Positions 33,443-55,186 of a DNA stretch of 59,751 bases are shown one piece after another. Location of the stretch: the NCBI GenBank assembly GCA_021162785.1, contig JAGGYA010000023.1:1-59751 (forward strand). Reading direction: 5' to 3'. Numbering within the stretch: position 1 is the stretch's first letter; each line of letters begins with the position of its first letter. The stretch is from Candidatus Calescibacteriota bacterium. Its GTDB lineage: Bacteria; CAIJMQ01; JAADFP01. The translations under genes and the position numbers were made by a program. A model generated the notes under the pieces. That model was not told the DNA's origin and searched no databases. It was given only the letters and a program-made list of their open reading frames with translations.

Positions 33443-34135
33443 GTGATGAAGGGAGCAAGTAAAATCGAAATTAAGAAGGATTATGAAATTCAAGATCTCT
33501 GGAGGATATTCCGGATAATCTCTGAATTTGTAGATGGTTTCGAAGCATTGAAAGATATAGGACCAGCAGTCACCTTCTTTGGTTCCTCTCGGGAAAAGGA
33601 AGGGGGAAAATACTATGAAGAAGCAAGGAAACTCGCCTATAAATTGGCTAAAAAGGGATTCGCTATCATTACGGGTGCAGGCCCAGGGATTATGGAAGCT
33701 GCCAATCGAGGAGCAAAAGAGGGGGGTGGAAAATCAATTGGATTGAACATAGAACTCCCACGTCCCCAGAAACCTAATCCCTATGTATCAACACTTTTAA
33801 ATTTTCGCTACTTCTTTGCCAGAAAAGTTATGTTTATAAAGTATGCTCAAGCATATGTGATTTTCCCTGGGGGAATGGGAACTTTAAGCGAATTTTTTGA
33901 AGCCATCAATTTAATTCAAACAGGTCGAAGTGCCCCTTTTCCGGTTATTTTAATTGGAAGAGACTATTGGGAAGGTTTAAATGATTGGATGTGGGAAGAA
34001 TGTGTAAGAAGGAGATATATCTATAAAAAGGAAATGGCTATATTTCATTTAGTAGACAATGCTGAAGAAGCTTACTCCTTTATCCTTTCTTACTTAGAAA
34101 AGAAGCCTGGAAAAAAACGATTAGAAGGATTTTAA
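33443..34135 (+). CDS. LOG-family protein (TIGR00730-like nucleotide-binding)
   Basis: GAGPGIMEAANRGAKEGGGKSIGLNIELP, PGGMGTLSEFFEAINLIQ. Confidence 0.9.
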   Translation: MMKGASKIEIKKDYEIQDLWRIFRIISEFVDGFEALKDIGPAVTFFGSSREKEGGKYYEEARKLAYKLAKKGFAIITGAGPGIMEAANRGAKEGGGKSIGLNIELPRPQKPNPYVSTLLNFRYFFARKVMFIKYAQAYVIFPGGMGTLSEFFEAINLIQTGRSAPFPVILIGRDYWEGLNDWMWEECVRRRYIYKKEMAIFHLVDNAEEAYSFILSYLEKKPGKKRLEGF

Positions 34136-37100
34136 TCGGGGAAAATCATTAATTTTCTGACCTTCTTTAAGAAATAAAGATAACCCTCTACAGCTAAGGT
34201 GAGTAATAGCAGGAGTAAAAGGCGAGGTAAATGAAAAATTCTTTTTAGAGTCAAAATTAAAGCCCTTTTCCATCTTACAACTTTTTTAAGCACCTTCCAT
34301 CCGCGACTCTCCAGGATCTTTCTGAGTTCTTCCCTTAAATTTACTACTTCTTGCTGTAGTTTCCCGATCTCTTCCTCTTTTCCTCCATTGGCCACCTGAA
34401 GGTGAACGGGAGAAGGCGAGGGTGGGGAAAGTGGATGGAGTTTATTTATTACTTCCACAAGTTCTTTTTCGTCTCTCACCTCTCTTTCTTTCCCCTCAGC
34501 AAAATTAACTTCCTGGACAGCAATTCCTTTCTCCCAAGCTAATTTAAGAAGAAGCTCTCCCCTCCTTTTTCTCACTTCATAATCATTTCCATCCTCAGTC
34601 CACCATAAATAGTGCCAGTTATCTTGGGGAAGATGTATTCCGTAACGGGAATGATTTTCGTAAACCTCAGTATCTTCTATGAGATGGAGAGTATTAATGG
34701 ATTTGATTTTATCAATGTAGGGAGCGTTCCTTTCAATAAATTCATAAGTCTGATAAAATTCCTTTTCTCCCTCACCCGGGAATCCCACCATTATAAATAT
34801 CTCCACTCCCATCCCTGCTTCCTTTGCTCTCCTTATCACATTCTCTGCATCTTCGGGAGTGTAAAATTTTCTCATCTTTTTGAGAACCTTCCTTGACCCA
34901 CTTTCCACTCCTATTTGAAGTTTATAACACCCTGCCTCTTTCATTTTTTTGAGAAGTTCAAAACTCATATCTCTTCTGGGAGCCACCTGCCCATACCACT
35001 CTATATCCAGCTTTTTAGCAAGAATTAAATCGCAGATACCTTCCAGTTGTGGAAGATATCCATTCATAAGTGGATCAATCACCGTGAATTTTTTAACCCC
35101 AAGCTTTTCCACATGGTGTTCAATCTCCTCCACCACCCAGGGTGGTTCATGATAACGGTAGGATTTTACAATTCGAGGGTTTTTGCAAAAGGCACATCTT
35201 CCTATACATCCCCGGCTCCATTCCAGCAAAAGCTCATCTCCCGGGTATCTTCCCACATCAAATCCTGCATAGTCAGGGATGGGAAGAGAATCAAGGGGCT
35301 TAATCCAGGGTCTTGGTTGATAATACCATTCATCTCCTTTTTTCACAGCCACTCCTTTAACCCCATCCAGGTCTCTTCCCTCCTTAATTCTCTCTGCTAT
35401 CTCCACCAGAGTTTCTTCACCTTCCCCCACTACATACCCAGCTATCTCATCTCCTACTTCCCTTACAAAAATTTCTCTTGCTTTAGGAGTGGAAGCAGAA
35501 GGCCCACCAAGAATAATAGGGAATTTTGCTCCCATGGCTCTCAGTCTTTTAATCAGAGAAATGGTAAGTCTTTCTTTACCATCCACCACGGAAAATCCCA
35601 GAAGAGATGGATTTAAACGGAGAATTTCCTCACAGGCTTCTTCAAGCCAGGGTTCCAAGAGTTTCTCTACAAAAGGGTAGACATTATCTCGCGCCCAAAA
35701 ATTTTTATTTTCAACATGCCAGAGAAGTTTATATTCAGGAGGAACTCTCTCAAAAAGTTCCAGGTTGAGATCATATACTTCCACCCGGAAACCTTTTTCC
35801 CTGGCATAACTTGAAAGGAACACAAGAGAAAGGGGAGGATTCTCCACCCCCCAGGGAGCAGGATTCACAAGAAGAATATCCGTGCCCTTCTTTACCCTGT
35901 TAACCGTCTCCAGCGGTAATCCCAAATTTTTAATATCTTTTTCCAGAGTGTTAACCCTTTCTTCCCTTACCTCGGAAGTATTATTTCCTTCTCTCCAGCG
36001 GAACCAGTGTTCGTAAGGGGGGAGATAAATAGAAAATTTCTCCGGTTTTTTCTCAAGAAGAGAGCCTGGCGGGATTAAACAGGAAGATAAATTCAAAACC
36101 CCGGCTATATAACGGGAATTCCTTTTGATAAATTCTCTGGTCTCTAAAAACTCACTCTCCCCTTCCCCTGGATGTCCTGCAATAAGGTTTACCCAGCATT
36201 CAATACCCTGAGAGTCTGCCTCTTTTAAAAATTCTTCTGCTATTTTGGGAGAAAAGGCCTTCTGCATTTTCCGAAGAACTTTCTCTGAGCCACTTTCCAG
36301 TCCTATAAAGATTCTTTTTACCCCTGCTTCCTTCATTAGGGAAAAAAGCTCTATGTCCTCCCTCTTTATCATGAAATTGGCTTCCCACCTAAACTTCAAT
36401 CCTGCTTCCTTCACCAAAGTGAGAAACTTACGAAAAACCTGTGAATCAGAATTCACTGCCTGATCCATGAATTGAAAATCTTTAAATCCTTTTTCCATCC
36501 AGTATTTTATTTCCTCAACAACCTTCTCAGGGTCCCGATATCGAAAGGGCCCGAGTAATTCCCTCTCATTACAGTAGGAACATCTTCCCTTACATCCCCG
36601 GGTGAGAAATAGGGGCAGTGTTGAAGAAGAATAAAGAGAAAGTGGCATGGCAGAAAAGTCAAGTCTGGGATAATCTTTCAGGTTAAGTGGAATGGGCTCC
36701 CGGGTTAACTGGAAACCCTCCTCTTTCAAAGCAATACCCCCAAAGGTCCTATTCCCGTTTAAAAGCTGATAAAGCGCTTCCTCCCCCTCACCCACCACAA
36801 CAAAATCTACTTCCTCAGAAACTGCTCTTTTTCTATCCTCCTCCCAGTAGACACCAGGGCCTCCCCATATAATTTTGAGGTCTGGATCCATCTCTTTAAT
36901 GAGAGAGGAAAAGAACTTTACCAGAGGGAGGTTAGCATAATTAGTGGAAAAACCGAAAACACTGTAACCTTCCTCAACCAGTTTCTCTGCTGTTTCTCTT
37001 AAGTAATCCCTTATCTCTTTCTGGCAAAGGGTGTAAAACCTGGATTGTTCAAAAAGCTCGCTTTTCCCCCTTTGCCAAAAAACGGGGTAATCCTTCCCTA

Positions 37101-38625
37101 ACCTCTGGTAGAGAAGAATATTAAGATCCCTTACCTCACACTGGTACCCTTTATTCTGCAAATAGGAGTAAAGGCATACCAGACCAAGAGGAGGCATCTC
37201 CACTCCCCAGGGAGGGAGGAATACAAGACAGAAATCTTTTTCCTTTTCATATTCACCAATATTTGTCGTCCATATGGGGATACCTTTACTTTCCAGAAAT
37301 CTTTTTACTCTTTTTACCCTTCTTATTCTTGTGGGAAGTGTATTTTCCCCTTCTTCCCAGTAGCGATCAAAATGGCGAAAGTCTTCAGGCAATTTTATTC
37401 CCCTTTCTATTCTTTCCTCCCACAGAGGGGAGTTGATCAGCAAATGACAGGCATTTAAATTGGTAATCCCTGAAATATAAGGAGCGTTTTCTTCAATAAA
37501 TTTCAAAGTCTCCTCCACATCTTCCTCTCTTTCTCCCGGGAAACCAAGAATAAAGTTAAGCTGAGTGTTTATTCCTGCTTCATGAGCCATTCGTATACTT
37601 TTAGCAATTTCTCTTGAGGAGAAAGGCTTGTTCATTAATTTAAGCACTCTGTCCGAACCACTCTCCACACCAAAGTTGAGGGTATGACAACCTGCCTTCT
37701 TCATCTTCCAGTAAAGATCTCCCATGTCTGGTCGGGGGATGGCAAGAGCCATCCAGGAGATGGAGAGCCTTTCATTAATTATGAGATCGCACAGTCTCTC
37801 CAGTTCTTTCAGGCTCCCATTAATAGCTGGGTCATTGAAAACAAATTCTCTAATTCCCCATTTCTCCACATGGAACTTTATCTCCTGAAAAACATCCTCT
37901 GCTTTTCTTACCCTGTACCTGCCCATTGCCCGGTGATCATCACAGTATGCACAGTGGAGAATACATCCTCTGCTCATGAGAAGGGGAAGTTTTCTCCCTT
38001 CATATAACTGGAGATCAAACTCCTCAAAAGTGGGATGGGGTATGGAAGTAATGGGAATAATTTGAGGAGAAGACAGAATTATTTCATCCCCATTTTTCAC
38101 CCAAACCACTCCAGGAATGTTTTCTCCACCCTCTCCCTTGAAAAACTGCACCAACCTGAAAAGTGCCTCTTCCCCTTCCCCCATTACAAAAGCATCTACA
38201 GAACCGGGAGGAAAATGACTCCGACCCAAAGAATCATAAACTCCTCTTCCACCCAGAATGATTCTTCGAGAAGGGTCTCTCTTTTTAATTTCGCGAACAA
38301 CCAGAGAAGTTAGAGAACGATTGGAAGCATGAACAGAAAATCCTATAATTGGAGCAGGAATGGAAACTATAGCATCGATTTCCTTTTCAATAACTCCTTT
38401 TACTTCTTCATTATCCAGCCAGCCTTTTTCAACCCAGTCTGGATTTCTGGAGAAATCCCATTTTTTCACATCTTTCAATTCCCGGTATATGAGTATATTT
38501 GAATCTCTTACCTCCACCTTTACATTTTTACATCGAAGATAGCCAGCCAGATAGGCAATATTTAAAGGAGGCATATCAAATCCATAGGGAGGAAGAATTA
38601 CTAAGAGAATATCTGGCCTATCCAT
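34132..38625 (-). CDS. 1497-aa protein with three tandem B12-binding-like/radical SAM modules plus C-terminal coiled coil and hydrophobic tail
   Basis: CxxxCxxC three times: CILHCAYC (about 37940-37975), CKGRCSYC (36565-36605), CIGRCAFC (35181-35220). Each module has a P-x-G-x-x-x-PPL N-terminal Rossmann-like part and GFPGE/GHPGE motif. Confidence 0.88.
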   Translation of the reverse strand: MDRPDILLVILPPYGFDMPPLNIAYLAGYLRCKNVKVEVRDSNILIYRELKDVKKWDFSRNPDWVEKGWLDNEEVKGVIEKEIDAIVSIPAPIIGFSVHASNRSLTSLVVREIKKRDPSRRIILGGRGVYDSLGRSHFPPGSVDAFVMGEGEEALFRLVQFFKGEGGENIPGVVWVKNGDEIILSSPQIIPITSIPHPTFEEFDLQLYEGRKLPLLMSRGCILHCAYCDDHRAMGRYRVRKAEDVFQEIKFHVEKWGIREFVFNDPAINGSLKELERLCDLIINERLSISWMALAIPRPDMGDLYWKMKKAGCHTLNFGVESGSDRVLKLMNKPFSSREIAKSIRMAHEAGINTQLNFILGFPGEREEDVEETLKFIEENAPYISGITNLNACHLLINSPLWEERIERGIKLPEDFRHFDRYWEEGENTLPTRIRRVKRVKRFLESKGIPIWTTNIGEYEKEKDFCLVFLPPWGVEMPPLGLVCLYSYLQNKGYQCEVRDLNILLYQRLGKDYPVFWQRGKSELFEQSRFYTLCQKEIRDYLRETAEKLVEEGYSVFGFSTNYANLPLVKFFSSLIKEMDPDLKIIWGGPGVYWEEDRKRAVSEEVDFVVVGEGEEALYQLLNGNRTFGGIALKEEGFQLTREPIPLNLKDYPRLDFSAMPLSLYSSSTLPLFLTRGCKGRCSYCNERELLGPFRYRDPEKVVEEIKYWMEKGFKDFQFMDQAVNSDSQVFRKFLTLVKEAGLKFRWEANFMIKREDIELFSLMKEAGVKRIFIGLESGSEKVLRKMQKAFSPKIAEEFLKEADSQGIECWVNLIAGHPGEGESEFLETREFIKRNSRYIAGVLNLSSCLIPPGSLLEKKPEKFSIYLPPYEHWFRWREGNNTSEVREERVNTLEKDIKNLGLPLETVNRVKKGTDILLVNPAPWGVENPPLSLVFLSSYAREKGFRVEVYDLNLELFERVPPEYKLLWHVENKNFWARDNVYPFVEKLLEPWLEEACEEILRLNPSLLGFSVVDGKERLTISLIKRLRAMGAKFPIILGGPSASTPKAREIFVREVGDEIAGYVVGEGEETLVEIAERIKEGRDLDGVKGVAVKKGDEWYYQPRPWIKPLDSLPIPDYAGFDVGRYPGDELLLEWSRGCIGRCAFCKNPRIVKSYRYHEPPWVVEEIEHHVEKLGVKKFTVIDPLMNGYLPQLEGICDLILAKKLDIEWYGQVAPRRDMSFELLKKMKEAGCYKLQIGVESGSRKVLKKMRKFYTPEDAENVIRRAKEAGMGVEIFIMVGFPGEGEKEFYQTYEFIERNAPYIDKIKSINTLHLIEDTEVYENHSRYGIHLPQDNWHYLWWTEDGNDYEVRKRRGELLLKLAWEKGIAVQEVNFAEGKEREVRDEKELVEVINKLHPLSPPSPSPVHLQVANGGKEEEIGKLQQEVVNLREELRKILESRGWKVLKKVVRWKRALILTLKRIFHLPRLLLLLLLTLAVEGYLYFLKKVRKLMIFPD

Positions 38626-41600
38626 GGGAGAAGTATCTTCTATGGATTTCTTCGTTATGCATTAAGTTATCACATGTGAAATAACATCCTATATCATCAA
38701 AATATGGATGATACTTGGGGAGGAACTTAGCCCTTCCACGGAATTCATTGTACTGAGGGGAAAACCAGATTTCCCGGAAACTCTTCTCCTTCACATTTCC
38801 CATAACTTTTTTCACTGCCCGGCAACAGGGCACTACACTTCCATCCGCCATTATCCGGGCAAATATCCATCCCACATAACAGGGGATTCTATCCACTCTT
38901 CCTTTATCATAAAGGCCTTTCAACGCAGTTGGATTGCAGACTCTTTCCTTGAATCCTTTCCAGTTCTCCAGTTCAATTTCTTCCCCCGCTTCTTTCTCCA
39001 CCTCACCCAGGAGTTCCTTTAATTCCTCCAGTTCTTTTTCATCCAAAAGTAAGCTTTCGGTACCTGGCAGAGGATCCATCATAGTGAAGTAAATAGCATC
39101 TGCTCCTACTTCTTTCCCAAGTTTAACCATATCCACCATTTCACGGAAATTCTTTTTTAAAATCACATTGGCTATGGTTACCCTTCCCTTCCCCTTACAA
39201 ATAAATTTAAGATTTTCCAGAATCTCTAAGAAATCTTCCTCTTTGGTTCCAGGGTGTAACTCCACATAGGTTTCTGGATGAGCAGACCAGAGACTAACTG
39301 CAAGTTCATCTACTTTATCTCTTATAATTTCTCTTACCCTCTCCTCAATCCGATAAAGATTTGTGGTGAGACAGAGTATCATACTGTTTTCCTTTACCTT
39401 CAGCATAATTTCATCTATCCCTTTATAGACGAGTGGTTCACCTCCACCTGTAAATCTCACTCTTTTAACATTTAACTCCTTCATTTCATCAAGCATCTTT
39501 TTCACAGGATCAACTGGTAATTTCTCTCTAAAATAGGAAGGAGGGGGTGGATTCTTGAGAAGTGGAGAATGGGTCCAGCAAGCAATACATCGGAGATTGC
39601 AGGTATTGGTGAGATCAACAACCACCTGCTCAGGACCAGTAAAAGCCTTTCTACCATGCAGTATTCCCGCAAGTAGTGGATCTTCAAACTCTTCCCTTTT
39701 TTCTTTTTTAATTCTTCGATATCTGGGGAGATAAATCCTCATGAGCTTCCTTTCCAAGGGAGAAAGGGAAAGTAGCTCCTCATGAACCTTTAAATTCCTC
39801 TGAAGGTCATCACAGGATTTATAGCAACCAACCTTACAATTGGGATCGTTTCCTATCATGGAAAAGAAGGGGTCATTTTTGTCAAATGTGAGGGCTTTGT
39901 ATCTGAATTCCTGATAGGAAGGAGAATTCCAGATTTCAGAAAATTTATTCTGGAAAATGTTTCCCAAAGGTATTCTATGTGCTTTTAGACAACCATTCAC
40001 ATTTCCATCAGGAAGTATACGGGTAAATACCCAACCAATGTAACAGGGTATCTTCCCTATGATCCAGCGGTCATAAAGTCCACTGGTAACATTCTCTTTG
40101 TTAGCAATCCGGTTATAGAATTGATCAAAGTTAAAAAGAACTATTTCTCTTGCCCAGCCCTCTTCCCTCCTCCTTTTAATTTTTTCACATAAACGCAAGA
40201 GTTCTTCCTGTTGTGAAGCATTTAGAAGGAGTTTATCCGTGGCTCCAGGTATTGTATCTATTACTGTAAATTCTACCGATTCAGAATGAGTAGTTCTTGC
40301 AAACTCTATCATTTCCTCCAGTTCTCGATAATTGAGATTGAAAATCACATTGTAGAGTTTCACCAAAGGTTTTCCTCTCTTGTGAGTATTAAGATAAATA
40401 AGATTCTCTTTAATTCTTTCAAAATCCAGCTCTGTTTTATTGGGATGGGTAATGGCATAGGTCCTGGCTGTTCCTGCCCAAATACTAACAGTTAAATGGT
40501 CCACACCCATATCGATCAATTCATCGATTTTTTTCTTGTCCAGGAGAGTAAAGTTTGTATTCACATAGCAAACCATACCCTGTTGTTTGGTAAACCGCAG
40601 TATTTCCATTATTTCTGGATGCGTAAAGGGTTCTCCCCCTCCTGAGTAATAAATTTCTTTGCATCCCATGTCTCTGAGTTCTTTTATTAATTCCTTTAAA
40701 ACCGAAAAGGGTAAAAACTCTCGTTTAACCCGGGGTGGCATCTTTTTATCTCCCAGTAAAGGTGAATTACACCAGCAACCAATACAATTGTTATTGCAGG
40801 AGTTGGTTACATCTATCTGCACAAAGTAAGGGCCTGTGTAAGCTCTCTTACCATCCATTACTCCCACAAGATGCGGAAACTTCTCAAGATAAAAGGAAGG
40901 TGTTAAATGCCTAAGACTTCTCTTAAAAACACCTTTCAATCCTTCCAGTTTCCATGCATTTTTTACAAATTTAAGAAGGGAACGTTTCTTTTCCTCTGAA
41001 GGTCTTACCAGTTTCTCTTCTTCGCCTGTCCTGAGGAGTATCTCCCAAACCTTCTTTTCCTTTGGTGAAATAACCACTTCCCCAAGCTTTACTCTGAGAA
41101 CCCTTGCACCCATGTGTGGTGGAGTATCTTCCAGCCCAACTTCTCCCTCACATAATTTTTGAAGACTCACAGCTGGAAGAAGATCCGCCCCTTCACCACA
41201 TTCCCTTACCCCAACCCATTCCACCCATGGATGAGAAAGGGGTAGAGGATGAAATCCGGAAGGATGAGGGAATTTCCCTCTTTCCATATCCGTGAACCAG
41301 TACTGGTAGCGAGGGGAAAGATAAATAAGAAACTTCAATTCTTGAATTCTTACCCTTCGGAAAGTTCTCAAGGTGACTACAAACCTGAAACCTTCTGGAT
41401 AAGGGAAAACACTTAAAGAAAATGTTACGGGAAGATTATTCCATTTAGAAATTATTCTCAGTTTTCGCCACCCTTTCTTAACTTTGAAATTACTTAAAGA
41501 AATATCTCTCCAGCTCTCTTTAACTCTGAAAGCAAGGTTCACTCCTGGCGTAAAGGTAAATTCTTTTCCTCTCCAGTAAATTCTCCCCGAACCTCTATCC

Positions 41601-43135
41601 CAGGCAAAATGTAAAGGAGGATTGTGAAGGGAATAAAACTTATCCTTGATGCACTTAAGGTTATGCTGGAGAATAAATTTTAAAAATTTCGCTGTTTTCC
41701 TGAAGGCTCCTTTCCATCCATAATGTTTCAGATAAAAAATGAATGTTCGGAAATATCTTTTTTCTAAGGGAATCCTAAATCTCTCTCTCTTTTTCAAATT
41801 CTCTCCCCAAAGTTCATAAGCAATTCTTCGTGCCTCTTCTAAATCATGGGGTGTAAGATGTTCAGTTCTTATTACACTGGCATAATTCCCATCATACTTG
41901 GAGAAATCCTGGCAGACAATATAACCCTCTTTCTCCATCATTTCATAGAATTCTGTACCCGGGAAAGGTGTGGCAATGGAAAATTGGACAGAAGTGGGAT
42001 TAAGGGCAAGAGCCAATTCTATGGTTCTCTTTATAGTTTCTTTAGTCTCTCCTGGAAGCCCGAAAGTAAAGGTTAAATGGGTCTTTATCCCAAGCTCCTG
42101 CGTGAATTTAATCATTCGTATTGCTTTTTCAAGATTCATTCTCTTTTTTGCCCTGTCCAGAATCTCCTGCGATGCAGATTCTACTCCATACTTTACAGAA
42201 TGCAGACCTGCTTCCCTTAACTTCTCAAGCACTTCTTCATCCATAAGATCCGGTCTTGCCATAATAGCCCACGGGAACTTTAGACCTCTTCTCAATATCT
42301 CCTCAGCTAACTTTTTCATCCTGGACTTACCTACATTTGTAGTATCATCATCAATGTAAATAGATTTAAAGCCCAGTTTGGTCAATACATACTCCATTTC
42401 ATCCACCACTTTCACAGGATCCCTGGCGCGAAATCTATTTCCACCATACATCAGTTGTGGCCAGGCACAGAAAATACACTGGAAAGGACAACCCCTACTT
42501 GTCCACATCTGACAGCAGGGTAAGGGTAAACCTCCTGGAGCATCTACATATTTCTCCATGGGCAATTCTTCGCGTAAAGGCCAGGGTAACCAGTCCAGAT
42601 CCTCAAGAAGGGGACGAGGAGGATTGATAATCACCTCGCCCTTATCCCTGTAGATAACACCCTTCACCCCCTCTCCTCCCCTCCCCTTTTCCAGCCTGGA
42701 AACAAGTTCCAAAAGGGTGACCTCATATTCTCCCACCAGGACAAAATCGATGAAGGGATATTTTTTGAGAAATTCTGGTTTCCTTATATTTAAATCTGCT
42801 CCACCAACAGCAACAGGTATATCTCTAAATTGGGAAAGGATTTCCAAATCATTATCTAAGGAAACTGTGGCCACTTCTGCAAAAATGAAATCAGGAGAAA
42901 ATTCTTGAACTCTTAAGTAAAATTCTTCTTTATCTATTTTCTCTGCTAAACAATCCCATAAGTAAGCAGAAAATCCTTCTCTTCTCAGCAAAGCTGTTGC
43001 ATATCCAAGATAAAATGGATAAGGTTGATAATCTCCTTCAGTATTGGGGTCTTTCAGGTGGGGCCAGCGAGAACCTGCTCTTACTCCCCATCTATCACCC
43101 ACTTTCCACGGGAGATTAACAAGTAAAATCTTCAT
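38618..43135 (-). CDS. 1505-aa protein: B12-type radical SAM module, ~200-aa beta-rich domain, two tandem SPASM-like radical SAM modules
   Basis: CPFQCIFC (about 42465-42495), CNNNCIGC (about 40774-40800), CNLRCIAC (about 39578-39602); extra Cys clusters after modules 2 and 3 (CYIGW...GCLKA...CKVGCYKSC; CYVGW...PCCRA...CYFTC). Confidence 0.88.
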   Translation of the reverse strand: MKILLVNLPWKVGDRWGVRAGSRWPHLKDPNTEGDYQPYPFYLGYATALLRREGFSAYLWDCLAEKIDKEEFYLRVQEFSPDFIFAEVATVSLDNDLEILSQFRDIPVAVGGADLNIRKPEFLKKYPFIDFVLVGEYEVTLLELVSRLEKGRGGEGVKGVIYRDKGEVIINPPRPLLEDLDWLPWPLREELPMEKYVDAPGGLPLPCCQMWTSRGCPFQCIFCAWPQLMYGGNRFRARDPVKVVDEMEYVLTKLGFKSIYIDDDTTNVGKSRMKKLAEEILRRGLKFPWAIMARPDLMDEEVLEKLREAGLHSVKYGVESASQEILDRAKKRMNLEKAIRMIKFTQELGIKTHLTFTFGLPGETKETIKRTIELALALNPTSVQFSIATPFPGTEFYEMMEKEGYIVCQDFSKYDGNYASVIRTEHLTPHDLEEARRIAYELWGENLKKRERFRIPLEKRYFRTFIFYLKHYGWKGAFRKTAKFLKFILQHNLKCIKDKFYSLHNPPLHFAWDRGSGRIYWRGKEFTFTPGVNLAFRVKESWRDISLSNFKVKKGWRKLRIISKWNNLPVTFSLSVFPYPEGFRFVVTLRTFRRVRIQELKFLIYLSPRYQYWFTDMERGKFPHPSGFHPLPLSHPWVEWVGVRECGEGADLLPAVSLQKLCEGEVGLEDTPPHMGARVLRVKLGEVVISPKEKKVWEILLRTGEEEKLVRPSEEKKRSLLKFVKNAWKLEGLKGVFKRSLRHLTPSFYLEKFPHLVGVMDGKRAYTGPYFVQIDVTNSCNNNCIGCWCNSPLLGDKKMPPRVKREFLPFSVLKELIKELRDMGCKEIYYSGGGEPFTHPEIMEILRFTKQQGMVCYVNTNFTLLDKKKIDELIDMGVDHLTVSIWAGTARTYAITHPNKTELDFERIKENLIYLNTHKRGKPLVKLYNVIFNLNYRELEEMIEFARTTHSESVEFTVIDTIPGATDKLLLNASQQEELLRLCEKIKRRREEGWAREIVLFNFDQFYNRIANKENVTSGLYDRWIIGKIPCYIGWVFTRILPDGNVNGCLKAHRIPLGNIFQNKFSEIWNSPSYQEFRYKALTFDKNDPFFSMIGNDPNCKVGCYKSCDDLQRNLKVHEELLSLSPLERKLMRIYLPRYRRIKKEKREEFEDPLLAGILHGRKAFTGPEQVVVDLTNTCNLRCIACWTHSPLLKNPPPPSYFREKLPVDPVKKMLDEMKELNVKRVRFTGGGEPLVYKGIDEIMLKVKENSMILCLTTNLYRIEERVREIIRDKVDELAVSLWSAHPETYVELHPGTKEEDFLEILENLKFICKGKGRVTIANVILKKNFREMVDMVKLGKEVGADAIYFTMMDPLPGTESLLLDEKELEELKELLGEVEKEAGEEIELENWKGFKERVCNPTALKGLYDKGRVDRIPCYVGWIFARIMADGSVVPCCRAVKKVMGNVKEKSFREIWFSPQYNEFRGRAKFLPKYHPYFDDIGCYFTCDNLMHNEEIHRRYFSHG

Positions 43136-45696
43136 TGCAGGATAATTTCTCCCGAGAAATCCACTTTTTCTCTTCTACTTTTATCATTTTCCATTACAAA
43201 CTCAAGTACTCTGCCACTCCAAAACAAAGGAGAATTTTTTATTATAACCCAGGAAACTGAACCTCGAAAAGTAAGGGAGGGTAAACCTTTACCTACCACT
43301 TTCACCTTTTCTCTTCCTTCCTTTACAAGCATCCATTCCTGGGTAAATTCAGGGAAGTTACCCCTTTCATCCGGAAGAATATACTGGGAATACTCTTTCC
43401 TAAGCATTAAAGAAAAATGTATTTCTTCCCAGTCCTCCTCTGGGGTCTCTATTTCTGCCTTGAATTTTACTCTATCACCTTTTACTTCAAGAAATACTTT
43501 ACTTTTACGGTAAGGAAACTCCAGTCCTTTCCCTTCTATTACCATCATCTCTTCATTAATTTCCTTTACTTCCCAAAGGGACTTAAAAGATTCTTCCCAC
43601 TCACCTTTCCGTTTAATACTCCAGTAAAGACCCCAGGAACCTGTAATTTCTCCTTCTTTAAAGAAAATCCTTCCTCGCCCATCCTTCCAAACAAAAGAAA
43701 GCCTTCCCTTTCTAATGGAAAATTCCTTTTTCTCCCTTTCTCTTTTTCTTTTTCTCTCTAACTCTCTTATCTCCATAATCTTTTCTTCCTCTCCTATATA
43801 GAGTATCCCCTCAAAAAGTCGGTGATACCCAGGAAGGAACTTGATACTTGAAGGTAGGAAAAACTGCAGGATACCAGAATCTTTCTCTTTCTGCACCACT
43901 CCAAATAAATTCTCTGGATAAATAACCCTTAAGAGAAGTGAAGGAACCTTCTTCCCCTCCACTCCCATAATTGGTGTAATCAAAGAAGGAAGAGAAAGCC
44001 AGAAAGAATCTGGTGCATTGGAAAATTCCCCTTCCCCTTCCAGAGTGAACCAATTTGAATAAACAGGGGAAAGATTCAAAATAATCCTGGGTTTGGAAAT
44101 CTCTATTGGACGAAAATTATTTAAAAAAAGCCACCACCAGATCTCTTCTTCTCTTTTCTTCCAGGAAAATTCCATCCAGAAGGGGAATCTTTTTAAGGAA
44201 AACCTCACCTTCCCATCCTCCTCCCAGACATATTCCTCCCTTTTAAAAAGGTCAACCAGATATTCCTTACCATTAATGGAAAAACCTGCAGAGAAACCTC
44301 CTTTACCTGTAAGCTCTTTCCCTTCCCATTGAAGGGAAATATATTCTTTAGGAACTACAATTTTAGCCTCTGATTTTTCAATTTCAGGGATTCTGAACTT
44401 TAAATTTAAATCTCCTGCTTCCCTTTTCTCCCAAAAAATTGCCTTTCCCTCACCATCTTCCCCCTCGCTAAATAAACGAATTCTATCCACTGGTTGATAA
44501 ACCGTTATTTCCCATGAAGGTAGATCTTGGAGGAAGGATTTTAGAAAAATAGGGGGAAAAGAATCTTTTATTTGTTCTATTTCCTTCCATTCTTCGCTTC
44601 GGATGGAGGGAAAATAAATCTCTATAGGCCTTTCAATTTTGGAGTAATTTTCCTGCCAGACCATACCTACCTGAAAACTCTCCACCTCCACCTTTTTCTG
44701 AACAAAATTCTTTATTCTCCACAACCATTCGTAACCATTGAGAAAGGAAATCCTCCATTCCTGAATTACCGGGAAAGCAAAAAACTTACCCCGTGCTACG
44801 ATCTCATTATCGCTTTTTCTTTCAACTTCCCATTCCTGATGATATGAGACATGAATTTCTTTCTCTTTCATGAAAGTGGTGTAACCGCCGGTAAGAGTGG
44901 TTAGCAATTTATCCTTCCAAAAAAGGAAGACTCGTCCCTGATTGAACACAAGTTTCAAATCCCCCCTTTCTATGACTTCTCTTTCTTTTTCCTTACCGGA
45001 AAGAGTTACATAGGTTTTGATTATTTCTCTTGCTTCTCCATCGGAAATTATTCTCCCTTTATCCAACCAGATGGCTCGTGAACAAAGCCTCTCCGCCAAA
45101 GCAGGAGAGTGAGTAACCAGAATTAAAGTAATTCCTTTTTCTTTCATTTCCATTAACTTATCCACACATTTTTTCTGAAAATGGATATCCCCTACACTTA
45201 AAATATCATCCACTAAAAAAATATCTGGATCTGTATGGACAGCTATGGAAAAAGCCAGCCGAATAAACATCCCCTCTGAATATGTCTTCAAGGGTGCATA
45301 TAAATAATCTCCTAAGGAGGCAAACCTTTCTATCTCCGAGATTTTTCCCCGAATCTCTTCCCGAGAAAATCCAAAAAGACTTCCCTGAAGAAAAATATTC
45401 TCAAGTCCAGTAGACTCAGGTTGAAATCCAGCCCCTGCCTCAAATAGTGTCCTCACCTTACCTTCTACTTTCACTTTACCTCGGTCAGGTTGAATAATCC
45501 CAGCAATAACTTTAAGTAAGGTGCTTTTCCCTGCGCCATTGTCCCCCAGGATGCACACACTTTCTCCCTTTTCCACTTCCAAAGAATCTATCTCCAGAGC
45601 TTTAACAGTTTTCCATATCCTTTTCTTTCCTGGATATAAAAAGGGGGTTAGATAAGTAACCACTATATCCTTCAAACTTACTATTTTCTTCTTCAT
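43132..45696 (-). CDS. Wzt-like polysaccharide ABC exporter ATPase with ~600-aa C-terminal extension
   Basis: GDNGAGKST (Walker A), YSEGMFIRLAFS (signature), IFLVDDILSVGD (Walker B), then about 610 aa beta-rich region. Confidence 0.9.
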   Translation of the reverse strand: MKKKIVSLKDIVVTYLTPFLYPGKKRIWKTVKALEIDSLEVEKGESVCILGDNGAGKSTLLKVIAGIIQPDRGKVKVEGKVRTLFEAGAGFQPESTGLENIFLQGSLFGFSREEIRGKISEIERFASLGDYLYAPLKTYSEGMFIRLAFSIAVHTDPDIFLVDDILSVGDIHFQKKCVDKLMEMKEKGITLILVTHSPALAERLCSRAIWLDKGRIISDGEAREIIKTYVTLSGKEKEREVIERGDLKLVFNQGRVFLFWKDKLLTTLTGGYTTFMKEKEIHVSYHQEWEVERKSDNEIVARGKFFAFPVIQEWRISFLNGYEWLWRIKNFVQKKVEVESFQVGMVWQENYSKIERPIEIYFPSIRSEEWKEIEQIKDSFPPIFLKSFLQDLPSWEITVYQPVDRIRLFSEGEDGEGKAIFWEKREAGDLNLKFRIPEIEKSEAKIVVPKEYISLQWEGKELTGKGGFSAGFSINGKEYLVDLFKREEYVWEEDGKVRFSLKRFPFWMEFSWKKREEEIWWWLFLNNFRPIEISKPRIILNLSPVYSNWFTLEGEGEFSNAPDSFWLSLPSLITPIMGVEGKKVPSLLLRVIYPENLFGVVQKEKDSGILQFFLPSSIKFLPGYHRLFEGILYIGEEEKIMEIRELERKRKREREKKEFSIRKGRLSFVWKDGRGRIFFKEGEITGSWGLYWSIKRKGEWEESFKSLWEVKEINEEMMVIEGKGLEFPYRKSKVFLEVKGDRVKFKAEIETPEEDWEEIHFSLMLRKEYSQYILPDERGNFPEFTQEWMLVKEGREKVKVVGKGLPSLTFRGSVSWVIIKNSPLFWSGRVLEFVMENDKSRREKVDFSGEIILQ

Positions 45697-46463
45697 AAAC
45701 GTTTTATAGCTTCATTTATCTTTCTTTCAAAGGTTACAACACCCAAACCAAAGAAAATCATCATATTGAGAATTGCAAGACCCAACCAACCAGGGGAAGG
45801 GAATTTCCCTTCATAAAGGAGTTTTTGAAAAGTTATTACAAAAGGAGTCATTGGATTGAATAAAAGCCAGTTGCGATAAGGAAGGGGAACAAATGAAAGA
45901 GTGTAGAATATGGGAGTCAACCAAAACCAGAAGAGAAGAACTAAAGAGACAAGATGTCCAGTATCTCGGAAGAAAACATGGAGCCAGCATAAAAACAAAC
46001 ACCATCCAGTGGTAAAAAGGAAGAAAAGGAAGAGGAATAAAGGAAGGGAAAATAAACAAATAAACGAAGGTTTGAAGAAAAGAAAAGCAGGGAGAATAAC
46101 TGTAAATCCAAAAAGGAAATTAAGGAAATTGGCTCCACTTCTTGAAAATGGGATGAGGACAGGGGAGAAAGTAAATTGTTTCAGAAGTGTAGCGGAACTC
46201 AAAAGAATGTAGCAGGATTCCTGAATTGTTTGTGAAAAATACATCCAGGGTAAAAGACCGGAAAGCACAAAAAGGGGATAGCGGGACAGATTTATTTTGG
46301 CTATCTTTCCAAATATTAAAGAAATCACACCTGCAAGAATAAGAGGGGTTATGAAAGCCCAGGCAATTCCAAGGACAGAACCAATGTATTTTTCTTTAAG
46401 AAATCTCCAGGAAAGGGCAAATAAATACTTTCTCTCTTTCCACAGAGTTTTTAAAGTCTGCAT
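45693..46463 (-). CDS. Wzm-like ABC-2 polysaccharide export permease
   Basis: 256 aa, six TM segments, WRFLKEKYIGSVLGIAWAFITPL, YRNWLLFNPMTPFVITFQKLLYEG. Confidence 0.9.
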   Translation of the reverse strand: MQTLKTLWKERKYLFALSWRFLKEKYIGSVLGIAWAFITPLILAGVISLIFGKIAKINLSRYPLFVLSGLLPWMYFSQTIQESCYILLSSATLLKQFTFSPVLIPFSRSGANFLNFLFGFTVILPAFLFFKPSFICLFSLPLFLFLFFLFTTGWCLFLCWLHVFFRDTGHLVSLVLLFWFWLTPIFYTLSFVPLPYRNWLLFNPMTPFVITFQKLLYEGKFPSPGWLGLAILNMMIFFGLGVVTFERKINEAIKRL

Positions 46464-47722
46464 TTCTCCCTAATCCTTTTTGCTATTTCCTCACCTTCCT
46501 TTATGCAATCTTCTATGGAAAAGTAATTCCAGCTTCCAAATCTCCCCCCTAAGTAAACATCGTGAGCCTCCATAAAAGAGAAAAGTTCTTCCAATTCATT
46601 TCTATTTCCTAAGAATAACGGGTATGCATACTTTATTTCCACAGGGTGTATAGCTTTAAGTTGGGAGTGTTTCTTAATTATACCCACCTTTTCCAGGTCT
46701 TCTATTACCCGCTCTAAAAGATCATTAGAATATGATGTATTTGCCAGTTCTACATAAAGGGAAAAGTGCCCCTTGGGAGCCAAAGTGGGAGAAATTTGAG
46801 TATAAAAACCCACTCGGAAAAATGAAAAACTTCCCTCGGGAAAGTAAATCCAGTGATATCCAGTCTCAGCTTTTCCTTCCACTCCCAAATTTATACATAG
46901 TATGGAGTTGGTATAAAGCTTCTCTTTTAATCTATATGGGAGCTTAGGAAAAGCCATTTCCAAGAATTCTTTAAGTGGAACAGTGGAAACCAGAAAATCA
47001 TAAATCAATTCTTCTCCATTATTTAGAACCACAGTTTTTTCCTCCCATTTTATGCGAACAACCCTTTTCCCCACCAAAATATTGAGATTATTTTCCTTCC
47101 AGCATTTAAAAAAAGTTTCAATTCCTCCTTCCTTAGGATAGTAGAAAACCCTGTTATAACCTACCGCAAAAACTCTCGGATTCTGGAAACCCTTTAGAAT
47201 ATCCATAACTTTATCTTCAGGGAAAAACCGGGAAATCTCTTTATAAGGTATGAGAGATATATCCAATCCAAAGAGTTTCTCAAAATAAGGCTGGAAGAAA
47301 ATATGGAAAAGCGTCTTTCCATATGAAGAAACTAAAAACTCTTTTAAAGACTCAGATTTTCCCTTCTTACCCCATCTTTCGATTAGTATTTCCGAAAGAA
47401 TACGAGTAGAAATTCGGGGAGGGAGTCTGCACAAATTTCTCTGTAAAGGAAAGGGAATTAACCTTTCTCTAAAGTAAATACCTGCCCTTTTTTCATAACG
47501 CCGTAAAATATCCCCACATTTCGAAAGGACCTTCCTTTCCATCTCAGGAGAATGGAAGTGAAGAAAATGAGCATCACTATCAAAAGTAAACCCATTTATT
47601 TGGAAAGACTTCAAAAGTCCACCTGGCCTTCCCTCTTTTTCTATTATTACTACAGGGAAAGGTAGATTGCCTGCTACTGTAACACCTGTTATTCCTCCCC
47701 CCACTATAATTCCCTTCCTCAT
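46451..47722 (-). CDS. FAD-dependent oxidoreductase, UDP-galactopyranose-mutase/protoporphyrinogen-oxidase-like
   Basis: Start revised to ATG 47722 (MRKGIIVGGGITGVTVAG), giving an ATGA overlap with the upstream gene; GGLLKSFQINGFTFDSDAHFLHF. Confidence 0.75.
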   Translation of the reverse strand: MRKGIIVGGGITGVTVAGNLPFPVVIIEKEGRPGGLLKSFQINGFTFDSDAHFLHFHSPEMERKVLSKCGDILRRYEKRAGIYFRERLIPFPLQRNLCRLPPRISTRILSEILIERWGKKGKSESLKEFLVSSYGKTLFHIFFQPYFEKLFGLDISLIPYKEISRFFPEDKVMDILKGFQNPRVFAVGYNRVFYYPKEGGIETFFKCWKENNLNILVGKRVVRIKWEEKTVVLNNGEELIYDFLVSTVPLKEFLEMAFPKLPYRLKEKLYTNSILCINLGVEGKAETGYHWIYFPEGSFSFFRVGFYTQISPTLAPKGHFSLYVELANTSYSNDLLERVIEDLEKVGIIKKHSQLKAIHPVEIKYAYPLFLGNRNELEELFSFMEAHDVYLGGRFGSWNYFSIEDCIKEGEEIAKRIREKCRL

Positions 47723-48675
47723 CTCAATACTTTTTTTAATAATACCCCCAAAAATGCACCGAGAAAAGTAAGATAGAATAAAGAAAAAATATTTTCCATG
47801 CGTGTAATCAGCACACCTGAAAAGGTTAGTATCCCACTTAATATCCCCATGAAACTCACCACCTTCCTCACTCCCCACCCTTTCTTTAAAAGCACAAGTG
47901 CCATATGGTCTTCACTTTTACGGTATATGGGCCTTTTTTGGGAAATCCTTCTTATGACCAAATAAAAAGTATCTATAAGGGGTAATCCCAAGAGTAGCAA
48001 TGGAGTAACCAATGCGATTTCCCTTCCTGGAGGAGCAAAACTCAATGGGAAAACAAGAAATGAAAGGAGAAACCCCATTAGATAACTACCAGCATTACCC
48101 AAGAAAAGAGATGCAGGTGGGAAATTGTAGAAAAGAAAAGAGAAAAGGTAAGAAAGTAGGACACCTGAAACAAGGAATACGGAGGAATTCCCATTCCATT
48201 TTGAGACTATCATAATACCCAAAAAAGGGAAAATACCTACCACTGGAGCAAGACCATCAAGTATATCTAAGAAATTAAAAGCATTGGTAATACCAATAAT
48301 CCATAAAAAGGTTATAAGGTAATTAAGAAAACTGGGAATTCGTCCAATAGTTGTATGAAGTGACCCTGCCATAACCAAAAAAGCAGAAACTGACTGTAAA
48401 AATAATTTGGGTAGAGGAGAAAGTTCAAGAAAATCATCCAGAATTCCCATAAAGAATACTATCATTGCACCTGCTATCACCCACAAACTAAATTGTGAGT
48501 ACCATAGGGAAAAAATTGTGAGTGGGAAAAGAAGCCATCCTCCAGTCAAAGGAATTCCTTCTCTGCTACCTACTATAAGGGAAGGTTTACTCACCCAGGA
48601 AAGGTAAATCCCTAATTTTTTCAGAAAGAAAAGAGAAAGGAGGGATATAAAAAATACCGCAAAAAATAAAAGCAT
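47719..48675 (-). CDS. WecA/TagO/MraY-family undecaprenyl-phosphate sugar-1-phosphate transferase
   Basis: TGGWLLFPL, MGILDDFLELSPLPKLFLQ, NAFNFLDILDGLAP, LFLGNAGSYLMGF. Confidence 0.88.
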   Translation of the reverse strand: MLLFFAVFFISLLSLFFLKKLGIYLSWVSKPSLIVGSREGIPLTGGWLLFPLTIFSLWYSQFSLWVIAGAMIVFFMGILDDFLELSPLPKLFLQSVSAFLVMAGSLHTTIGRIPSFLNYLITFLWIIGITNAFNFLDILDGLAPVVGIFPFLGIMIVSKWNGNSSVFLVSGVLLSYLFSFLFYNFPPASLFLGNAGSYLMGFLLSFLVFPLSFAPPGREIALVTPLLLLGLPLIDTFYLVIRRISQKRPIYRKSEDHMALVLLKKGWGVRKVVSFMGILSGILTFSGVLITRMENIFSLFYLTFLGAFLGVLLKKVLR

Positions 48676-49805
48676 TATCCTTTCCCAGCCATGTAGAGGA
48701 GCTCTATCTTTTCTATCATATTTTTTATATCAAATTCTTCCCTATTTGTTATCCTTTTTGCTTTCTCCCCCATTTTCCTTCTCAAATTCTCCTCTACTAA
48801 AAGCTTCCTCACCCTTTCCGCAAGGAGATGCACATCCTTGGGGGGAATGAGAAAACCATTTTCTCCGTTTTTTATCATCTCCTTAATTCCATCCACTCCA
48901 TAGGCTACAGCAGGAATTCCTAAGGCAAAGGCTTCCAGCAAAGATTTGGGCAATCCTTCCCACAAAGAGGTTAATACAAAAACATCAAAAATGCGCATAA
49001 CTTCTTCAATATCTTCCCTCCAGCCCAGTAGGTAAAACCTCTCCTCTAATCCACCCCTCTTTATTTCCAATTCCAAAGCTTTCCTCAATTCCCCATCCCC
49101 TACCATTACAAAGGCGGTATTGGGGATTTTTAATAAAGTAGCCATTTTCACAAAATCCTTGAGATTTTTCTGCGGTTTGAAACAAGCCACAGTTCCTACC
49201 ACTTTTCCTTCTTTAATACCTAACTCCTTCTTTTTCCCCTCCCTCTCTATTTTTACCTTTTCAAATCGTCCAAACTCAATTCCATCACGTATCAAAATGT
49301 ATTTTTGACTCTCTCCAATTCCTGCATTTAATCCTTTTTTAATATCTTCCTGAGTTATGGCTATTAAACGGGTGGTTATTTTAGCAGTTATTCTCTCTAA
49401 AAAGGAGTAAAAAGACCGCAGAAAAAGGGATTGAAAACTGTGGAAAGGGAAACCATGAACAGTATGATAAATTAAAGGAACACCGCTTAGGTAAGCAGCC
49501 CATCTCCCCAGTATTCCAGCCTTGGAAGAGTGGGTGTGAACAATATCAGGCTTTATCTTTTTCAGTTCCTTAAAAAGAAGAAAAAAAGTAATAATATCCC
49601 AGAAGGGGTTGATTTCTCTACAAAAAGGGAAGTACTTGAGAGAAACTTGGTGTAGCTTTTCTGCTCTTTTACTCAAATAGCCGGGAGAAGTAAATAGAAA
49701 AACTCTATAATCTTTCTCAGCTAACTTTTCCACAGTGTAAAGAGTAGAAGTTTGAGCACCTCCGAACTCTAATTTAGTTATTATGTGCACTACCTTTCTC
49801 ATCAT
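48675..49805 (-). CDS. Glycosyltransferase, GT4 family
   Basis: KLEFGGAQTSTL, VHTHSSKAGILGRWAAYLSGVP, LTSLWEGLPKSLLEAFALGIPAVAYGVDGIKEMI. Confidence 0.92.
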   Translation of the reverse strand: MMRKVVHIITKLEFGGAQTSTLYTVEKLAEKDYRVFLFTSPGYLSKRAEKLHQVSLKYFPFCREINPFWDIITFFLLFKELKKIKPDIVHTHSSKAGILGRWAAYLSGVPLIYHTVHGFPFHSFQSLFLRSFYSFLERITAKITTRLIAITQEDIKKGLNAGIGESQKYILIRDGIEFGRFEKVKIEREGKKKELGIKEGKVVGTVACFKPQKNLKDFVKMATLLKIPNTAFVMVGDGELRKALELEIKRGGLEERFYLLGWREDIEEVMRIFDVFVLTSLWEGLPKSLLEAFALGIPAVAYGVDGIKEMIKNGENGFLIPPKDVHLLAERVRKLLVEENLRRKMGEKAKRITNREEFDIKNMIEKIELLYMAGKG

Positions 49806-49817
49806 TTATAAGATAAC

Positions 49818-51080
49818 TTAATGGAGGGGAAGTTCTTGATAAGAAAGAACCTTTGCTTTTGTGAGAGGAGGTATGGTTACCCCAGGAGGTGGAAAAGGAG
49901 GGATCCATTGCTTATCGTGGACAATGTGCACTGAATCGTAAATTTTTTCCAGTTGAAATTCGTCAGAGAAGACACAGCCTTGGATTTGCACAGAATTATA
50001 TATTGCGCATGAACCATTCTCACCTAAGTATACTACTCCCCTAAGCACGGAAGAATTTATAATCTCAATTCTTTCTACTGCAATGAGTTGCCCTTCAACT
50101 ATTGAAGAATTGGCAACTCCAATACCTCGGGAGGAAAAGACAACCGTGAACTCTCCGGAAGGTATATAAGAGGGGTCACATTTTATTTGGGAGGAATTGG
50201 ATACATGAATCTCCCACCCCGAGATAATCTCATTAACATTTTGAATTTGGGAAAAGTTAATTACACTTATTCCTTCGGTAGAGATGATTCTGCCCGGTCC
50301 AATAATCTTCCCTCCATTCCTTACAATCACCTTCCCTTTAACTTTCTTAGTAGCACCGGCAAGATTGTAAGTTGTCCCATCCACTATTAAATCTGGGTCT
50401 CCATTTACCTCTGCATCATGAATTTTGTCATCGTAATAGGAAGTGTCCAAAGTGGGGTATGGAGGTGGAGGATCCGGACATATTCCCGGAGTATAGTTTC
50501 CCTCCCCACTTATTGTTCCCGTAGAGTACACCAATCCCGGGACTACTTCACAGCTGGGGCCAATGTAAATATCTCCATAAGCAAAAACATTCCCGGGTGC
50601 ATCACCTAAGCGGTGAACTGCCACACTGTTTAAGAGGGAGAAACTCCCCGAACGATCAGAATTTCCCCAAAATAGAGCGTAAGTTCTAAAGAGCTCACTT
50701 GGAGTTACACTGTGAAGCCATACTCTATACTTAAGCTTTCTCTTCCCCTTTGATACTCCTTGAGAAACAAAGGTAACTATTGTGTCCCCATCTACATTTT
50801 CTAATTCAGTGATATAAACGGAGTAGGTCCCCTTATCTAAGGATTCGTTCTCGAAAAGAACACCTGCTTTTTGTGAAGAAGGGTCCCTACATAATTTCCA
50901 AATAGCTCTCTCCGCACCAGCTTCTGCCAGATAAAGAGCATTAATTTCCCTCCCTTTTATAGTCACAGTTTGATAATATCCCTTTACTCCTATGGAGACT
51001 GCAAGACCAAATAGAACCAGAGCAAACATTAAAAAAAGAGCAAGGATACCAATAATCCCTTTCTCACTTTTTAAATTCAC
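49818..51080 (-). CDS. PilX-like pilus assembly protein with predicted beta-helical C-terminal region
   Basis: GTG start (51080) overlapping the upstream stop (GTGA). N-terminus GIIGILALFLMFALVLFGLAVSIGV...LYLAEAGAERAIWKL; C-terminus of repeated short strands with NSS/NSV turns. Confidence 0.7.
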   Translation of the reverse strand: MNLKSEKGIIGILALFLMFALVLFGLAVSIGVKGYYQTVTIKGREINALYLAEAGAERAIWKLCRDPSSQKAGVLFENESLDKGTYSVYITELENVDGDTIVTFVSQGVSKGKRKLKYRVWLHSVTPSELFRTYALFWGNSDRSGSFSLLNSVAVHRLGDAPGNVFAYGDIYIGPSCEVVPGLVYSTGTISGEGNYTPGICPDPPPPYPTLDTSYYDDKIHDAEVNGDPDLIVDGTTYNLAGATKKVKGKVIVRNGGKIIGPGRIISTEGISVINFSQIQNVNEIISGWEIHVSNSSQIKCDPSYIPSGEFTVVFSSRGIGVANSSIVEGQLIAVERIEIINSSVLRGVVYLGENGSCAIYNSVQIQGCVFSDEFQLEKIYDSVHIVHDKQWIPPFPPPGVTIPPLTKAKVLSYQELPLH

Positions 51081-51610
51081 GGCCAATTCCTTAAATGAGC
51101 AGATGAACACAAGGAAAATTCTCGACCCGCTTCTCTTAATACCAAATTAATTTCTACAAGTGCTACTTCATTATATAAAAAAGGAGGAGTTAAAAGTTCA
51201 TTTTTATTATTTCGATATAAAAGGGAAAAACTCTCCACATTTCTGGCCATAACCCCTATCTTATCCCCCGCTCCACCTTCCCCCCAAACCTTCCTTAAAA
51301 GAATGGTTGAATTTTGGGGATCTAAGTAATAACTAACCCTTTCCGGTTCAATATGGGAGTCTTGAGGATTAACATCTACATCAATAGTTATTTTATTACT
51401 ATCCGCTTCATATATGCTCACTGCCTGCCTAATTTCTCTTACCATCTTCTCAATAGCAAAGAGTCCCGTTCTGGAAAGTCTTACATTCACATCTGCTTCC
51501 TCCCATTTTTTCAAGCCAATGGCAAAAGATAGGTACATACAGCCCAATACAATGATGCTAATAATTATGGAAATCATTATCTCTAAAAGAGTTACACCCT
51601 TTTTAGTCAT
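51077..51610 (-). CDS. PilW-like minor pilin
   Basis: KKGVTLLEIMISIIISIIVLG prepilin signal. Confidence 0.75.
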   Translation of the reverse strand: MTKKGVTLLEIMISIIISIIVLGCMYLSFAIGLKKWEEADVNVRLSRTGLFAIEKMVREIRQAVSIYEADSNKITIDVDVNPQDSHIEPERVSYYLDPQNSTILLRKVWGEGGAGDKIGVMARNVESFSLLYRNNKNELLTPPFLYNEVALVEINLVLREAGREFSLCSSAHLRNWP

Positions 51611-51986: not shown

Positions 51987-52007
51987 TACTCAGCCTCTTT
52001 TTGAAGA

Positions 52008-52879: not shown

Positions 52880-52892
52880 TTATTTTTTCCTT

Positions 52893-53360: not shown

Positions 53361-53401
53361 TTTCTCACCTCCCGATAATTACTCTAAATTATGAAACTAC
53401 T

Positions 53402-53950: not shown

Positions 53951-53962
53951 CCTCCCTTCCTT

Positions 53963-55183: not shown

Positions 55184-55186
55184 TTT

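Follow-up and report, generated by a model that had tools for sequence, protein, structure and literature searches.

Radical SAM enzyme arrays joined to an ABC-dependent glycan export locus in Omnitrophota and some archaea: a likely route to chemically unusual surface glycans

Why do genes for glycan assembly and export run, by overlapping stops and starts, into genes for two giant radical S-adenosylmethionine (SAM) proteins? The question is raised by contig JAGGYA010000023.1 of a Candidatus Calescibacteriota bacterium (assembly GCA_021162785.1), whose 59,751 nucleotides are the window analysed here. At 34132-49805, seven minus-strand genes encode a GT4-type glycosyltransferase (GT), a WecA-like transferase, a flavoenzyme resembling UDP-galactopyranose mutase (UGM), a Wzm-like permease, a Wzt ATPase, and radical SAM proteins B (1,505 aa) and A (1,497 aa); as a first-pass annotation had described, neighbours overlap by 1-13 nt in their open reading frame (ORF) coordinates. 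That annotation also supposed that the radical enzymes modify the glycan or its carrier lipid before or during export. Radical SAM chemistry is, to our knowledge, rarely discussed in surface-glycan assembly. The system is real and conserved; its gene order, domains, intact cluster motifs, conserved linkage and fusions are direct observations. We put at about 75% the probability that the locus assembles and exports a glycan by an ATP-binding cassette (ABC)-dependent route in which radical enzymes do the tailoring and the exporter has a reader domain of a new type. The earlier supposition gains support from linkage to the exporter at 35 of 51 loci, from fusions of radical SAM modules to Wzt, GT2-type glycosyltransferases and a GDSL domain, and from a common domain of sugar-binding type.

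How far is the linkage conserved? The named homologous loci come nearly all from metagenome-assembled genomes of Candidatus Omnitrophota, and of 386 genomes from that phylum, 54 have full-length relatives of the first Twitch module of protein B by profile search. Profiles made from the window genes served to annotate 44 neighbourhoods of at most 20 kb each, together with 16 control stretches taken from those genomes; counting the named loci as well, the comparison covers loci of 51 genomes. The recurring order is GT4-WecA-UGM-Wzm-Wzt(sandwiches)-radical SAM array-GT4/GT2, the sandwiches being the beta-sandwich domains discussed below. At 35 of the 51 loci the cluster includes both Wzm and Wzt. 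At one more (L031, genome G016) Wzt is seen and the Wzm side lies beyond the fetched stretch, and the remaining 15 are cut off by a contig end that lies 0-1,084 bases from the array gene furthest 5'. Neither Wzm nor the sandwich domain is found in any of the 16 control regions, two of which have an ABC ATPase that scores as Wzt-like. The homologues do not, then, lie mostly away from glycan export genes, the outcome that the first-pass annotation had said would refute its reading. The arrays range from 1 to 13 Twitch/SPASM modules and from 1 to 6 B12 modules per fetched stretch. Sandwich and Twitch module occur together in 53 genomes, singly in 1 and 20, and neither in 312, for which the Fisher p of 3e-47 is an overstatement, because related genomes are not independent. 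Genomes with the sandwich only might seem to be counter-examples; all 12 loci sampled from them have a Wzt-sandwich with radical SAM genes or modules, more distant in sequence.

The fusions carry the argument further. One ORF of 1,902 aa (L102) joins a Wzt ATPase, two sandwiches, a B12-radical SAM module, another sandwich and a Twitch radical SAM module. Ten ORFs join a GT2 to a radical SAM module, and these fusions recur in several genomes; one further ORF (L192) has the order B12-radical SAM, GT2, SPASM radical SAM, for a total of eleven such proteins. Another (L098) joins B12-radical SAM to a GDSL domain. Pfam confirmed all six representatives tested. The strongest evidence that the modules serve the glycan is their fusion to glycosyltransferases or to the exporter ATPase. 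One might object that the adjacency is an accident: in a compact genome where overlaps are general, two transcription units may simply happen to lie side by side. The linkage is indeed broken in two related genomes (G005 and G006). Recurrence in tens of genomes across the phylum and in archaea, together with the fusions, leaves this objection with next to no probability, and we reject it on synteny and fusions.

The archaeal occurrences broaden the picture. The Twitch module is also present in five genomes of another phylum, which have archaeal RpoN, whereas the window genome and G007 are without this archaeal RpoN. In one of them (G472), Twitch and B12 arrays, GTs and Wzm-Wzt extend across three adjoining stretches that make one region of about 60 kb. 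The first 40 kb, without an exporter, looked like a counter-example, but the next 20 kb has Wzm-Wzt. Beside the arrays of this genome (L151-L152) are genes for asparagine-synthase-like, sulfatase and arylsulfotransferase proteins, hinting at amide or sulfate decorations. We note also that one archaeal Twitch match (L143, G014:C122:1740-2873) has one in-frame TGA.

What kind of exporter is this? The best Protein Data Bank (PDB) relatives of the Wzt ATPase are Aquifex aeolicus Wzt structures (8dku/7k2t, E 8e-61), and its top three NCBIfam models are teichoic acid and galactan export ATPases, all below their cut-offs; the sole NCBIfam match of Wzm, likewise below cut-off, is the galactan Wzm model NF050109. 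With an ATPase nearest Wzt/TagH and an ABC-2 permease partner, the pair is predicted to be a polysaccharide ABC exporter. The usual jelly-roll C-terminal carbohydrate-binding domain is not present in this Wzt, being ruled out by the lack of a Pfam match and by a model of mutarotase-like supersandwich type. Instead, the C-terminal 620 residues contain three repeats of a domain found also in the middle of protein B (single-sequence search, E 7.7e-9 to 1e-5). Among 25 aligned copies from Wzt and radical SAM proteins, W51, S54, W59, P79, F132, N172 and R180 are invariant. An AlphaFold2 model of the last repeat has a predicted local distance difference test (pLDDT) score of 89.8, and Foldseek matches it to aldose 1-epimerase 3nre (TM score 0.71), GH94, GH38 and the YidC periplasmic domain; matches of this galactose-mutarotase-type fold are mostly in carbohydrate-active proteins. 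By sequence, the sandwich profile finds nothing significant in the PDB. The supersandwich stands, according to the model, in place of the usual Wzt carbohydrate-binding domain, and fold and position suggest that it binds glycan. The number of repeats varies, and at L031:374-8605 a Wzt of 2,743 aa with about ten of them precedes a long run of separate radical SAM genes.

What do the giant proteins hold? The first-pass annotation spoke of two proteins of about 1,500 aa with six CxxxCxxC motifs between them. Six intact motifs and six radical SAM domains are indeed there, at C221, C678 and C1140 of protein A and at C216, C780 and C1179 of protein B; shuffled versions of the two proteins average 0.0045 and 0.015 motifs, or about 0.02 in total against the 6 observed. 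Pfam places three Radical_SAM stretches in each protein, and all six exceed the cut-off one by one. Taking the two as equivalent is not borne out, as protein A has three B12-radical SAM modules, and protein B a B12-like radical SAM module, a beta-sandwich and two Twitch/SPASM radical SAM modules. In protein A, B12-binding PF02310 precedes PF04055 in all three stretches, with 105.7 bits for the whole protein. Membership of protein A in the RiPP (ribosomally synthesized and post-translationally modified peptide) C-methyltransferase family TIGR03975 was considered and rejected: the score of 345.9 passes the cut-off of 281.85 only when summed over three modules, single-module homologues score 137 and 127, and the pass is an artefact of the addition. 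No single module tested reaches an NCBIfam cut-off. A tree built from 75 B12 and 122 Twitch modules places the protein B modules and protein A module 3 with their equivalents in other genomes and not with each other, hence as separate lineages, as expected of different reactions or distinct steps. Protein A modules 1 and 2 have long branches, and their placement is less clear.

The nearest solved relative of protein B module 1 is AprD4 (6fd2, E 1e-26). Its best NCBIfam profile is HpnJ, at 233.5 bits of the 577.6 needed. Might the modules then modify the lipid carrier or a membrane lipid, as do HpnJ, HpnR and Tes, and leave the sugar chain alone? HpnJ acts on a sugar-bearing hopanoid (PMC12583986), which would fit, but what HpnJ itself makes is a cyclitol ether, starting from a precursor that bears glucosamine, the sugar-binding-type fold and the GT fusions point to sugar, and the clusters showed no genes for lipid biosynthesis; we consider a lipid target quite improbable.

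Twitch module 1 matches PF04055 and PF13186, and among 12 sequences C45, C49 and C52 are invariant, as are the auxiliary cysteines C296-x17-C314 and C369-x3-C373. Cysteines for both the SAM cluster and an auxiliary cluster are therefore present. A full SPASM domain has seven cysteines and two auxiliary clusters; with only four invariant auxiliary cysteines, the module has a single-auxiliary-cluster pattern like that of BtrN. Its profile finds BtrN, DesII, PqqE and BlsE in the PDB, and by fold the best matches are SuiB, SkfB, PqqE, BlsE, DesII, MoaA and BtrN, so that both sugar and peptide enzymes are near. DesII and BlsE act on nucleotide-linked sugars, and a mutarotase-like fold suits single sugars. 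It could be, therefore, that the radical enzymes act earlier, on soluble nucleotide sugars, giving an unusual donor from which the glycan is then built in the ordinary way. On the other hand, the fusions to exporter ATPase and GT2 and the domain common with Wzt place the modules at the chain and the exporter, and 3 to 13 different modules seem too many for the making of one donor. We think such early action somewhat unlikely, and we are about half as confident as in the locus-level reading that a lipid-linked glycan, and not a sugar nucleotide, is the substrate.

The peptide enzymes among these matches raise another possibility, that the modules mature a peptide or protein, either a product like those of RiPP pathways or the neighbouring pseudopilins, the exporter serving a glycopeptide or being unrelated. 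Most enzymes of the SPASM and TIGR03975 families act on peptides, and five pilin-like genes lie directly upstream of the window's cluster. At L025 and L102, too, type II secretion system (T2SS) genes lie next to the homologous cluster. In most homologous clusters, though, T2SS genes are absent, whereas GTs and Wzm/Wzt recur. Because the operon genes overlap, a separate precursor-peptide gene would find no space among them; the single modules tested fall short of every NCBIfam family, and GT2 is fused to radical SAM modules. A peptide substrate is thus improbable.

The layout of the window's cluster bears on its extent as a transcription unit. All six stop/start overlaps of the first-pass annotation agree with the ORF coordinates: GT4 and the WecA-like gene have the single base 48675 in common (TAATG), the WecA-like and UGM-like genes overlap in ATGA at 47719-47722, UGM-like and Wzm by 13 nt (46451-46463), Wzm and Wzt by 4 nt (45693-45696), Wzt and protein B by 4 nt (43132-43135, again ATGA), and proteins B and A by 8 nt (38618-38625). 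The UGM-like start is residue 53 of a longer GTG ORF. The gene set claimed for 34132-49805 is present, but 49805 is not proven as the operon start: tight packing continues upstream into a same-strand T2SS/pseudopilin run (49818-56866, including the pilin-like genes and T2SS E/F genes), GT4 begins 12 nt after it, and the transcript may begin further upstream. A scan for promoters and terminators gave counts at or below the shuffled expectation and was uninformative. The WecA-like protein clearly belongs to PF00953, although its best NCBIfam model, TIGR02380 WecA, is matched at 99 bits against a cut-off of 326. The UGM-like protein, only Amino_oxidase in Pfam, is similar over its full length (residues 4-400) to the Trypanosoma cruzi UDP-galactopyranose mutase, which backs the earlier call; it is a homologue of a characterised UGM, and mutase activity is predicted.

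Table 1. Coordinates of the genes and domains of the cluster within the window
Feature	Position	Strand	Basis
GT4-type glycosyltransferase (Glycos_transf_1, PF00534)	48675..49805	-	Pfam 133 bits; TAATG overlap with WecA-like gene
WecA-like polyprenyl-phosphate sugar-1-phosphate transferase (initiation)	47719..48675	-	PF00953, 107 bits
UDP-galactopyranose-mutase-like flavoenzyme, start ATG 47722	46451..47722	-	PDB 4dsg UGM, E 6.5e-36
Wzm-like ABC-2 permease	45693..46463	-	PF01061, 41.8 bits
Wzt nucleotide-binding domain, residues 1-237	44986..45696	-	PF00005
Wzt C-terminal part: three galactose-mutarotase-like (supersandwich) repeats	43132..44985	-	Self-similarity, AlphaFold2 model, Foldseek
Protein B module 1: B12-binding-like + radical SAM (C216)	41726..43135	-	PF04055; AprD4 6fd2 E 1e-26
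Protein B middle beta-sandwich, homologous to Wzt repeats	40931..41725	-	phmmer: Wzt_d3 7.7e-9, Wzt_d2 3e-6
Protein B Twitch/SPASM radical SAM module 1 (C780; CNNNCIGCWCNSPLL)	39776..40930	-	PF04055/PF13186; AlphaFold2 pLDDT 85.8; conserved Cys
Protein B Twitch/SPASM radical SAM module 2 (C1179)	38621..39775	-	Separate orthologous lineage
Protein A B12-radical SAM module 1 (C221)	37246..38625	-	PF02310 + PF04055
Protein A B12-radical SAM module 2 (C678)	35746..37245	-	PF02310 + PF04055
Protein A B12-radical SAM module 3 (C1140)	34426..35745	-	PF02310 + PF04055; orthologues L035 B3, L025 B3, L071
Protein A tail: coiled-coil-like stretch, SRGWK motif, possible hydrophobic (membrane-like) segment	34132..34425	-	Translation inspected

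Three further observations deserve mention. A 430-aa protein without a Pfam match is encoded at 49818-51110, between the pseudopilins and GT4. Elsewhere in the same genome (L036, C5:10000-29000) is a second glycan-type cluster, with a WecA-like gene, a 474-aa Twitch-type radical SAM protein, a GDSL protein and GT4 genes. Three of the Omnitrophota control regions (L113, L115 and L121) have, in the fetched stretches, giant ORFs of 6,633, 5,581 and 4,633 aa.

How might the parts work together? In the scheme that we infer for substrate, reactions, order of steps and export licence, the WecA-like enzyme would load a sugar-phosphate onto undecaprenyl phosphate, glycosyltransferases would extend the chain, and the UGM-like enzyme would probably supply a furanose sugar. 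The six radical SAM modules would act one after another on the sugars, the likeliest target being the lipid-linked glycan while it is still cytoplasmic and not yet exported, with the B12-type modules adding methyl groups or doing chemistry of diol-dehydration type, and the Twitch/SPASM modules dehydrogenating, deoxygenating or epimerising. The galactose-mutarotase-like domains of exporter and radical SAM protein would hold the same glycan and could pass only correctly modified chains, and Wzm/Wzt would then carry the completed lipid-linked glycan through the inner membrane. A tentative form of this scheme, to which we would give rather less than even odds, is an assembly line, in which radical SAM modules, ordered and often covalently fused, would edit the lipid-linked glycan one residue at a time, during its growth or after its completion, and the common mutarotase-like readers would check the edit before export by Wzm/Wzt.

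Several observations weigh against a radical-tailored glycan exporter. In a sister genus (G005 and G006), the WecA-UGM-Wzm-Wzt block, with a Wzt 41% identical, is a locus of its own, protein B directly follows GT4, and the triple B12-radical SAM protein is on another contig; physical coupling is thus not required, and not even all close relatives have the strict operon. Most homologous loci are without the triple B12-radical SAM protein in the window's form. The Wzt-radical SAM fusion is found in one genome, a single metagenome bin, and every sequence comes from metagenome bins. PF02310 in protein B module 1 scores 31.1 bits where Pfam requires 32.1, and the similarity of the modules to sugar enzymes is weak. 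The structural matches of the Twitch module that rank highest include the peptide enzymes SuiB, SkfB and PqqE, and Twitch/SPASM enzymes act more often on peptides. Finally, the window yielded no dedicated pathway to a sugar nucleotide, no ligase and no polymerase.

What would follow if the glycan is indeed the target? The repeated joining of glycan building and export genes to radical-enzyme arrays, mostly in Omnitrophota and in some archaea, suggests an undescribed route to chemically unusual surface glycans. Uncultured Omnitrophota and archaea would have a class of cell-surface glycans marked by C-methylated, deoxy or carbocyclic residues, functions could be given to many radical SAM families that now have none assigned, and modular enzymes would become available for editing sugars that ordinary chemistry reaches poorly.

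How does the system compare with those already known? The Wzm/Wzt O-antigen exporters of A. aeolicus and Escherichia coli O9a also have Wzm, a Wzt with a C-terminal part of sugar-binding type, WecA-like initiation and glycosyltransferases. There the jelly-roll domain of Wzt reads the chain cap before export, and the chemical cap licenses export (PMC9445017); here mutarotase-like repeats, from 1 to about 10 of them, make up the C-terminal part in place of a jelly-roll dimer, and tailoring would fall to radical SAM arrays and not to O-methyltransferase or kinase cap enzymes. In mycobacteria the galactan export core is WecA, Glf/UGM, GlfT1/2 and Wzm-Wzt (PMC10951656), the same combination of WecA, UGM and Wzm/Wzt as in the window. 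That account mentions no radical SAM enzymes, however, and the window proteins score far below the cut-offs of the galactan models. HpnJ, of the hopanoid cyclitol ether pathway, is a precedent for radical SAM action on a lipid-linked amino sugar, although no hopanoid genes are seen here. AprD4, BtrN, DesII and BlsE, the sugar and cyclitol enzymes among the nearest solved relatives, are soluble, stand-alone members of antibiotic pathways, neither fused in arrays nor tied to export. Literature searches for radical SAM enzymes with Omnitrophota/Omnitrophica or with Wzm/Wzt returned titles, abstracts and passages that contain nothing on this system, nor on any polysaccharide exporter linked to arrays with as many as 13 Twitch/SPASM modules. 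The B12-radical SAM C- and P-methyltransferases (TIGR03975, PhpK, Sden_1168) share the B12-binding and radical SAM architecture of the three protein A modules, but the single modules score well below every family cut-off, and protein A unites three of them in one chain. For glycans we know of nothing comparable, and the nearest parallel in logic is the modular megasynthase.

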